Assembly (NCBI RefSeq): GCF_005930495.1
Contig: NZ_SJEX01000028.1
Location: 1-51,496, forward strand
Reading direction: 5' to 3'
Length of the DNA stretch: 51,496 nucleotides
Origin: Modestobacter excelsi
Lineage (GTDB): Bacteria > Actinomycetota > Actinomycetes > Mycobacteriales > Geodermatophilaceae
The translations under genes were made by a program, and so were the position numbers. This document shows, piece by piece, positions 6,433 to 7,957 of the stretch; positions within the stretch are counted from its first letter, which is position 1, and each line of letters begins with the position of its first letter. Below the pieces are notes generated by a model. It saw nothing but the letters and a program-made list of their open reading frames with translations, ran no database searches and was not told the DNA's origin.

Positions 6433-7110
6433 TCACACCGCGAAGAAGACGGTCTCGTCGTCCCCCTGCAGGTGGATGTCGAGCACGTACCCGTCGTCGC
6501 TGGGCCGGGCGATCAGGGTCCGGCGGGAGGCGTCGTCGGGCAGCGCGGCCAGGACGTCGTCCTCGGCGTTGGCGTCGGCCTCGTCGGCGAAGTAGATCCG
6601 GGTGACGACCCGGTCGAGCAGCCCGCGGGCGAACACCGAGACGTCGACGTGCGGCGCCTGCAGCCCGCCCTTGCCGTCGTCGACCCGGCCCGGCTTGAGC
6701 GTGAGGATGCCGTACTCACCCGCCGGCTCGACGGTGTGCGACCGGCCGAAGCCGCGGAAGCCGGGGTACCGCCGTTCGCCCTGCGGCGCGTCGGGGTGGT
6801 CGAAGCGACCGTCCGGGTCGGCCTGCCAGGTCTCGATCATGGCGTCGGGCACCAGGTCGCCGTTGCCGTCGAACACCCGACCGCGCAGCCAGATGGCGCC
6901 CTCGGTGCCCTCGGCCACGGCGTGCGGACCGTCCGCCCAGGTGAGGCCGATGGACAGGTACGGCCCGACCGTGGCACTCGGCGTGAGACCGAGCTGGAAC
7001 GGCTCGTCCAGGAAGCCCGAGCCCCGCCGCGGCGTGCCCGGGCGGCGGTCGTTGGTCTCGTTCGCGTTGCGGACCTGCGGGGAGAGGTGGTCGATCTGAT
7101 GTGCGGTCAC
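6433..7110 (-). CDS. pcaG: protocatechuate 3,4-dioxygenase alpha subunit
   Basis: The alpha subunit of the intradiol dioxygenase, 225 residues from the GTG at 7110. GGAGG sits 6 nt before this GTG. Motifs shared with the beta subunit are present (TVGPYLSIGL, ETWQADPDGRF, GILTLKPG, QAPHVDVSVFARGLLDRVVTRIYF). The four iron ligands of the beta subunit are not all kept, as expected for alpha. An in-frame ATG at 7200 would add 30 residues encoded by the inserted element between pcaH and pcaG; this longer frame may reflect translational coupling and is not likely to be native protein. Confidence 0.93.
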   Translation of the reverse strand: MTAHQIDHLSPQVRNANETNDRRPGTPRRGSGFLDEPFQLGLTPSATVGPYLSIGLTWADGPHAVAEGTEGAIWLRGRVFDGNGDLVPDAMIETWQADPDGRFDHPDAPQGERRYPGFRGFGRSHTVEPAGEYGILTLKPGRVDDGKGGLQAPHVDVSVFARGLLDRVVTRIYFADEADANAEDDVLAALPDDASRRTLIARPSDDGYVLDIHLQGDDETVFFAV

Positions 7111-7205
7111 GCGACACCTCCGGCGCGATTCCGCGCCTCGTTCCGCTCCTCGGTCGCTGGCGCTCCCTGCGATGCTCGCTCCGCTGTCATCACGCGACAT
7201 CTCCG
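7107..7205. mobile_element. MIRU-like element splitting the pcaH/pcaG junction
   Basis: A 16-bp sequence, read on the minus strand as CGGAGRTGTCGCGTGA, occurs at 7205-7190 (end of pcaH, containing its TGA) and at 7122-7107 (ribosome site and GTG of pcaG), differing at one base. The 67 bp between the copies are rich in GAGCG/CGAGC words and include the inverted repeat GGCGCG-ATTC-CGCGCC at 7122-7137. Removing one copy plus the insert would restore a GTGA stop/start overlap, like most junctions in this window. No stop occurs in the pcaG frame through the insert. Only one copy is present here. Confidence 0.6.
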
Positions 7206-7957
7206 TCGTCGTCGGTCTCGAACGGGGTCTGGTCGGTGCCCCGCAGGACGATGTCCCAGTGGAAGGCCAGCGCCCAGTTGTCCTGGGTGCGGTCCAGGTC
7301 GAACGTGGCGATCGCGCGGTGCCGGGCCGACGGCGGGATGGCGTTGAAGATCGGGTCCTGCCAGAACAGCGGGTCGCCCGGGAAGTACATCTGGGTGACC
7401 AGCCGCTGGGTGAACGCCCGCCCGAAGAGGCTGAAGTGGATGTGCGCCGGTCGCCAGGCGTTGTGGTGGTTGCCCCACGGGTAGGCGCCGGGCTGGATGG
7501 TGGTGAACTCGTACCGGCCCAGGCTGTCGGTCATCACCCGGCCCAGGCCGTCGAAGTGCGGGTCCAGCGGCGCCGGCCAGTTGTCCCCCACGTGCCGGTA
7601 CCGGCCGGCCGCGTTGGCCTGCCACACCTCCACCAGGGTGTCGGGCACCGGGCGGCCGTCGCTGTCGAGCACCCGGCCGAAGACGTTGATCCGCTGCCCC
7701 TGCGCCTCCCCGCCCATCCGCAGGGTGAGGTCCGCGTCGGCCGCAGTGACCCGGTCCTCGCCGAGCACCGGCCCGGTGACCTCGGTGAGCCGCTGCGGCA
7801 GGTCGACGGGGGTGCGCAGCGGGGCGCGCAGGGCGGTGCTGCGGTAGCCGGCGTACGCGACGGGGGTCCGCCGGTCGTCGGACTCCCGGAGGTAGCGCGG
7901 CAGTTCGAGTGCGCTGTCCGCCGCCGGCCGCGGCGCGCGAGATGTGGTCCCGGTCAT
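7190..7957 (-). CDS. pcaH: protocatechuate 3,4-dioxygenase beta subunit
   Basis: The iron-bearing subunit of the enzyme that cleaves protocatechuate to 3-carboxy-cis,cis-muconate. At 255 residues it is a little longer than the family norm at the C-terminus. All four Fe(III) ligands are visible: Tyr120 (AAGRYRHVGDNW), Tyr159 (QPGAYPWGNH), His172 and His174 (RPAHIHFSLFG). The N-terminal RTPVAYAGYRSTALRAP is typical of PcaH. The ATG at 7957 has a TACGGT box 6 nt upstream, so the mRNA is probably leaderless. This is the first gene of pcaHGBDC, divergent from the IclR regulator, which is the likely regulator. Confidence 0.96.
   Translation of the reverse strand: MTGTTSRAPRPAADSALELPRYLRESDDRRTPVAYAGYRSTALRAPLRTPVDLPQRLTEVTGPVLGEDRVTAADADLTLRMGGEAQGQRINVFGRVLDSDGRPVPDTLVEVWQANAAGRYRHVGDNWPAPLDPHFDGLGRVMTDSLGRYEFTTIQPGAYPWGNHHNAWRPAHIHFSLFGRAFTQRLVTQMYFPGDPLFWQDPIFNAIPPSARHRAIATFDLDRTQDNWALAFHWDIVLRGTDQTPFETDDDGDVA

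Follow-up and report, generated by a model that had tools for sequence, protein, structure and literature searches.

The pcaH/pcaG junction of Modestobacter excelsi carries a copy of a dispersed, probably mobile repeat found at TGA stop/start overlaps in Geodermatophilaceae

An 83-bp insert between pcaH and pcaG

The pcaH and pcaG genes of Modestobacter excelsi are separated by a short insert with a direct repeat at its ends, and the locus raises the question of what this insert is and how it can be tolerated between two genes of an operon. The window, by which we mean the whole analysed stretch of 51,496 nucleotides (contig NZ_SJEX01000028.1), contains the following features at the junction, all on the minus strand:

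7190..7957, minus strand: pcaH, protocatechuate 3,4-dioxygenase subunit beta; stop TGA 7192-7190; NCBIfam TIGR02422, 335.8 bits (cut-off 296.4)
6433..7110, minus strand: pcaG, protocatechuate 3,4-dioxygenase subunit alpha; start GTG 7110-7108, in-frame alternative ATG 7200; NCBIfam TIGR02423, 206.3 bits (cut-off 126.25)
7107..7189, minus strand: inserted unit of 83 bp, the element together with a single copy of the target end; in relatives without the insert (e.g., L059, L061, L062) pcaH and pcaG overlap at GTGA or ATGA
7137..7177, minus strand: conserved element core GAGCATCGCAGGGAGCGCCAGCGACCGAGGAGCGGAACGAG
7190..7208, minus strand: target duplication, 5' copy, the pcaH end CGACGGAGATGTCGCGTGA; the empty junctions of L059 and L061 have the same sequence here
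7107..7125, minus strand: target duplication, 3' copy, 17 of 19 positions identical; contains GGAGG and the pcaG start
7107..7193, minus strand: mini-ORF VMTAERASQGAPATEERNEARNRAGGVA, from GTG 7193 or ATG 7190 to the stop TGA 7109-7107
7117..7121, minus strand: GGAGG, likely Shine-Dalgarno site, 6 nt upstream of the pcaG GTG

Both junction genes scored above the NCBIfam equivalog cut-offs for the beta and alpha subunits of protocatechuate 3,4-dioxygenase. A single direct-repeat pair was found between positions 6900 and 7400 (7107-7125 and 7190-7208, 17 of 19 positions identical, start-to-start spacing of 83). It extends the near-perfect 16-bp repeat reported in the preliminary description of this DNA, which is present at 7107-7122 and 7190-7205 with one mismatch. 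On the minus strand, the pcaH end GACGACGGAGATGTCGCGTGA is followed by TGACAGCGGAGCGAGCATCGCAGGGAGCGCCAGCGACCGAGGAGCGGAACGAGGCGCGGAATCGC and then by GCCGGAGGTGTCGCGTGACCGCACATC with the pcaG GTG (7110-7108), which overlaps the TGA at 7109-7107. As described earlier, one repeat carries the pcaH stop TGA and the other the pcaG ribosome site and GTG. The pcaG frame is also open upstream to an ATG at 7200 within the pcaH end, as had been noted (ORF 6433-7200, 255 amino acids), and a second open route from pcaH to pcaG is provided by the mini-ORF of 27 or 28 codons, which overlaps the pcaH stop and shares a 4-nt overlap with the pcaG start. Between 6900 and 7400, the repeat search detected no inverted repeat of at least 12 bases, and every Rfam family stayed below its gathering score. 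The fold energy of the pcaH/pcaG copy was not better than that of shuffled sequences (z = −0.34), and nothing unusual was seen for six typed units (z from −0.70 to 1.11 against shuffles). Insert-free 4-nt stop/start overlaps occur elsewhere in the window; the preliminary description had counted five, and rough gene calls gave ten among 30 co-directional pairs (4302, 5078, 13404, 17166, 22254, 24545, 27279, 30143, 32800 and 42449).

Dispersal of the element and its empty and occupied sites

The search of the insert against the source and related genomes, proposed at the outset, revealed a dispersed repeat. At E ≤ 0.001 the 99-bp stretch was matched 24 times in its own genome (counting itself), and a second subfamily used as the query gave 29 matches at E ≤ 0.01, of which six lay at new positions, making 30 matches at about 25 places (tandem and composite runs counted once, by hand). 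The same genome holds a divergent subfamily with three copies in tandem at a period of 79 bp (L054, G000:C99:32514-32704). The element was matched in 38 of 59 genomes, its own included, with up to 15 candidates scored per genome. The core pattern GAGCATCGCAGNGAGCGCCAGCGANCGAGGAGCGGAACGA occurred in 90 stretches of named genomes, and the 80 of these among the matches listed all belong to Geodermatophilaceae; the named matches listed came from Blastococcus, Modestobacter, Geodermatophilus and unplaced strains of the family. Nine of the 21 own loci compared had long matches among named loci, the best being with Modestobacter altitudinis (96% over 2753 bases and 94% over 3964) and the unplaced Geodermatophilaceae strain URHA0031 (94%). 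In the order-wide search, in which two candidates were scored per genome, 116 of 397 genomes contained a match: 63 of 75 within Geodermatophilaceae and 53 of 322 outside the family, several of the latter matching weakly (family counts by hand). No match was found in plasmids and phages at E ≤ 1e-5 or in viral contigs with the one 85-base consensus and the one pattern tried. None of the eight genomes of genus g4 in the same family was matched (G025, G099, G106, G139, G152, G189, G255 and G284), which offers a contrast for finding a mobilising enzyme.

Comparison of the pcaH/pcaG junction among relatives, also suggested beforehand, showed near relatives to be empty. PcaG was found in 41 of the 59 genomes and 30 junctions were read, four of which were occupied: that of the source genome and those of one genome of the same genus (L064 in G004) and of two other genera (L081 in G028 and L085 in G032). 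Inspection by eye of the remaining 26 revealed GTGA or ATGA at the pcaH stop in 22, TGATG in three and TGAGATG in one. The junction of the nearest relative (L059, PcaH 97% identical), GACGACGGAGATGTCGCGTGAGCATCGACC, is unsplit, which bears out the earlier statement that deletion of 83 bp restores a GTGA overlap. The spacer of L063 is longer and includes element-like letters, possibly an element remnant. The repeat before pcaG matches the letters of its own host (GTCGCGTGA in the source genome and L081, GTGGCGTGA in L085), as expected of a target duplication. About ten or more bases ending in TGA are duplicated in these three copies; the two repeat copies of L064 differ more. The GTGA of this junction may be an insertion hot spot, since three more genomes are occupied while closer relatives are empty.

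Similar patterns were observed at two pyrimidine gene junctions. The pyrB/pyrC junction was occupied in four of 16 loci of the same genus (the source genome and three close relatives) and empty in 12, with no element seen at this junction in 13 loci of other families. At pyrC/carA, again with four of 16 loci occupied and 12 empty, the source genome carries one subfamily and L210, L215 and L220 another. The distribution of occupied loci suggests that the element entered the same stop/start overlaps on separate branches, and the scattered occupied sites, together with the target duplications, point to a mobile element. The insert at pcaH/pcaG is more than a chance feature, because 23 further matches occur in its own genome (E ≤ 0.001) and near relatives have empty sites; an insert unique to this junction, facing unrelated spacers in relatives, against which the preliminary description had set its reading, is not what was found.

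The duplication was also evident across the collection. Ninety-nine copies bordered by TGA on both sides were examined for identity between the bases surrounding the two TGAs, with pairs shuffled among copies as the control. In subfamily A (n = 59), identity at positions +1 to +6 after TGA was 0.69, 0.58, 0.51, 0.42, 0.56 and 0.47, compared to 0.43, 0.50, 0.34, 0.33, 0.44 and 0.37 after shuffling. In subfamily B (n = 16), excess identity lay directly before D (0.88 versus 0.26 shuffled), and the 24 other copies gave a mixed signal. In L203, L134, L172, L128 and L004, one element is apparently nested in another, giving composite units of 158-172 bp.

Gene context, unit length and translational layout

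Copies were gathered by similarity to a few seeds. A hidden Markov model of the core gave 213 hits on 206 loci, 151 of which remained after the removal of duplicates and hits with short flanks; in 144 copies the flanks were of sufficient length for a codon model to call genes, the calls being rough. Both neighbours were co-directional with the element in 135 of the 144 (24 of 28 at the loci of the source genome), compared with 392 of 495 neighbouring pairs in 80 element loci (p = 2e-5), a background that is drawn from element-bearing loci and includes the element-carrying junctions. The exceptions had an opposing downstream gene (5/144) or upstream gene (4/144). The junctions formed 61 clusters, with operon-like examples at fliP/fliQ, hisS, pheS/pheT and nuo, ruv, nad and cob genes (names assigned by eye). 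The upstream stop was TGA in 131 and TAG in four of the 135 co-directional copies. A stop before the core and a start were both found in 114 copies; seven were read-through copies and 14 lacked a start, mostly as inner tandem members. DTGA stood at the 5' border in 106 of the 114, compared to 146 of 314 stops at element-free co-directional junctions (p = 2e-20); an in-frame 4-nt overlap was present at 106 of the latter. At the 3' border DTGA was found in 102 of the 114, the choice of start having favoured one that overlaps TGA; a nearest-start rule gave the same phase counts. There was no start overlap at fusA or at stops preceded by C. Read-through by the upstream gene yields element-coded C-termini in L163, L137, L170, L162, L150, L092 and L020.

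Single-core units were mostly 74-92 bp long, with 83 bp the commonest length and 83, 80 and 74 bp dominating. A unit that runs from DTGA to DTGA forms a mini-ORF with 4-nt overlaps at both ends when its length is 2 mod 3, and in no other phase. This phase was taken by 70 of 90 single-core copies (12 at 0 and 8 at 1). It was also taken by 54 of the 70 junction-by-length events in 51 junction clusters (9 at 0 and 7 at 1), which are not fully independent, since phase is inherited with the element. There were eight distinct lengths in phase 2, five in phase 0 and seven in phase 1. With several lengths in every phase, the bias is one of how frequently each length occurs, and the count of distinct lengths was dropped as proof of phase selection. 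Among phase-2 copies, the mini-ORF stop was in an exact 4-nt overlap (−4) with the next start in 70 of 76, and 15 of 19 phase-0 copies run into the downstream gene as an N-terminal extension. Tandem units with periods of 83 or 74 string several mini-ORFs together. An unbroken chain of overlapping ORFs was present in 109 of 135 copies versus 1802 of 2700 core-shuffled versions, and the chain remained open in 41 of 135 copies after a shift by +2 or −1, in 91 after +1 or −2 and in 102 after a shift by 3. As shuffled cores often pass too, the ORF path is a weak test alone; it was discarded as proof of coupling and is given for its descriptive value. In 85 of 114 copies the restored start was preceded, at a distance of 4-11 nt, by an SD-like tetramer (spacing of 7 in 55), compared with 49 of 106 background overlaps (p = 2e-5) and 43 of 114 upstream DTGAs.

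In our opinion, with a probability of roughly 0.8, the pcaH/pcaG insert is a copy of a non-autonomous dispersed mobile repeat that enters at a TGA stop, mostly within a DTGA overlap, and is tolerated in operons. The occurrence of several distinct lengths in every phase, together with a period outside 2 mod 3 in one presumed MIRU run, lowers this estimate slightly, as it does that of the broader scheme considered below. Such an element would enter at the TGA stop, mostly where the stop and start of co-directional genes overlap, in the direction of the genes, and would duplicate roughly 3-19 bases around the TGA, so that the new copy would have a stop/start overlap at each end. With its usual length of 2 mod 3, a mini-ORF of about 23-29 codons would join the upstream stop to the downstream start through 4-nt overlaps, and the element would tend to place a GGAG-type ribosome site some 7 nt upstream of the restored start. 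Ribosomes that terminate could then pass on to the downstream start, which would allow the insertion to be tolerated in operons; an element that rebuilds both stop and start signals probably does little harm. The layout suggests that coupling is physically preserved, and tolerance of this kind may explain the distribution of the copies. The mobilising enzyme would presumably be supplied from elsewhere.

Several other explanations were weighed. It is possible but rather unlikely that the preference for stop/start overlaps and the phase are by-products of the target site and the copied length, with coupling playing no selective role. The dominant lengths of 83, 80 and 74 bp are copied with the element, each phase includes several distinct lengths and a one-base insertion into the core leaves 91 of 135 paths open as fusions, all of which would suit such a by-product; the rarity of the incompatible phase 1 among junction-by-length events and the enrichment of SD-like sites at the restored start argue against it. 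A useful small peptide encoded by the mini-ORF is very unlikely: many subfamily A copies share an open and similar frame (ERASQGAPATEERNE-like), but subfamily B uses another reading frame of the core, and phase-0 fusions and read-through copies alter the product again. This use of different frames disfavours a conserved peptide. The position between two operon genes would also be compatible with a structured regulatory RNA or attenuator, a reading that we rejected as highly improbable given fold energies close to those of shuffles and the absence of an Rfam family or an inverted repeat of at least 12 bases in 6900-7400; in addition, the element lies at 51 clusters of different junctions. Finally, the 16-19 bp direct repeat at the insert ends might have been produced by a local tandem duplication, or might border an unrelated spacer, confined to pcaH/pcaG. 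The sequence between the repeats recurs in the same genome and in relatives, which leaves this explanation practically no probability.

Relation to known repeats and possible origin of subfamily A

MIRUs, in whose description the term DTGA is used, run in the direction of the flanking genes and are without dyad symmetry. MITEs are short, dispersed, non-autonomous elements with target duplication and terminal inverted repeats, and REP/ERIC/BOX-type repeats are short, intergenic and present in many copies. The element shares with MITEs its short length, dispersal, non-autonomous nature and target duplication; a search for inverted repeats of 12 bases or longer found none at the pcaH/pcaG copy. 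Like REP/ERIC/BOX repeats it is short, numerous and located between genes; unlike them, it has no unusual fold, its orientation is fixed and its position is fixed at TGA.

The resemblance to MIRUs is closer. MIRUs have been described as entering at start codons, their internal ORF being coupled at −4 to the following gene (review PMC12548453), as 40-100 bp in size with 41 locations in M. tuberculosis H37Rv (PMC2734929) and as having unit sizes of 77 and 53 bp (PMC2453075). They are limited to M. leprae and the M. tuberculosis complex in one paper (PMC4213456) and to mycobacteria in the recent review (PMC12548453). The units studied here are likewise short, dispersed, and single or in tandem at some loci (periods of 83 and 74). 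Most fall within the 40-100 bp range, and their copy number is similar, in the tens per genome (30 matches at about 25 places, against the 41 locations reported for H37Rv). As in MIRUs, the copies are co-directional with the flanking genes (135/144) and no dyad symmetry was seen, in that the pcaH/pcaG copy has no inverted repeat of at least 12 bases and seven units showed no unusual fold. At the restored start the agreement is one of layout (3' border DTGA in 102/114, mini-ORF stop at −4 in 70 copies). The reported 77- and 53-bp MIRU units are 2 mod 3, as are most Geodermatophilaceae units. In contrast to MIRUs, the element has no sequence similarity to them above shuffled controls, its named hosts listed are Geodermatophilaceae rather than mycobacteria, it falls into several subfamilies, shows target duplication, has empty sites as well as fusion copies, and also occurs behind fusA, where there is no overlapping start. 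No publication found in the open-access PMC literature describes an element of this kind in Geodermatophilaceae or reports MIRU-like elements from outside the mycobacteria.

Common ancestry of the element and mycobacterial MIRUs, which would make it a true MIRU, was considered unlikely. A MIRU core gave 11 matches in five of the 397 genomes of the order, all in one genus, presumed to be Mycobacterium from a copy that lies upstream of a RegX3-like gene. These presumed MIRUs share the layout, going from DTGA through GACGATGCAGAGCGTAGCGATGAGGAGGAG to a further start, with a tandem period of 53 in one genome and, in another, of 52, a value outside 2 mod 3; element-like sequences in other families of the order would also suit a shared ancestral repeat. 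The homology, convincing by eye, failed against shuffled sequences, as the MIRU consensus scored 23.5 with consensus A and 20.0 with consensus B, values equalled by 599 and 1054 of 2000 dinucleotide shuffles, respectively, and nhmmer with the element core returned no hit up to E = 10 on the MIRUs of six loci. The earlier proposal of a MIRU-like insertion splitting an overlap is supported, in that copies of a dispersed repeat sit at DTGA between co-directional genes. The anticipated comparable element outside mycobacteria is present in Geodermatophilaceae, with weaker relatives in other families of the order, and we class it as a new MIRU-like family rather than a MIRU proper, since sequence homology with MIRUs is unsupported. 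A second family with the same insertion rule and no detectable similarity to MIRUs suggests that the stop/start overlap may be a general safe harbour for mobile DNA that was reached more than once. The pairs of empty and occupied sites, which come from harmless bacteria of the soil, make both the transposition model and the idea that coupling decides survival directly testable, and the element may account for N-terminal extensions and for operon gaps of 70-90 bp in Geodermatophilaceae.

The origin of subfamily A was considered in the light of copies behind fusA (EF-G). An element unit lay directly behind fusA in five of 48 loci found by tblastn (G050 of family f2, G044 of f11, G004 of f1, G040 of f7 and G037 of f4). 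Of the remaining loci, L314, L317 and L321 showed possible traces and 40 showed none. Three further cases came from other searches (G404 of f8, G147 and G073 of f4), for a total of eight genomes in six families (L267/L276, L281, L282, L310, L316, L256, L265 and L266). Seven of the eight have a second copy of the fusA tail behind the unit; none was seen in L266. Between the 5' arm of subfamily A, GCGAAGACGACGGGCGAG, and the fusA tail of the element-free L302 (family f3), 17 of 18 positions agree, and eight other fusA tails match the arm at 14-16 of 18; in 2.6 million other windows, no 17/18 match was found outside element copies. Because the arm is not at a constant position in all copies, and because the similarity had been noticed before arm and tails were picked, capture of the fusA end is treated as a hypothesis; on this comparison fusA is a possible birthplace of subfamily A. 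A broader scheme appears speculative and rather unlikely as a whole: an order-wide superfamily of coupling-preserving repeats, with MIRUs as one branch, would have captured new 5' arms from duplicated ends of host genes, and subfamily A would have been born behind fusA, retained its last codons and then spread into overlapping operon junctions. At the three fusA loci checked for the next gene (L256, L276 and L281), it is tuf.
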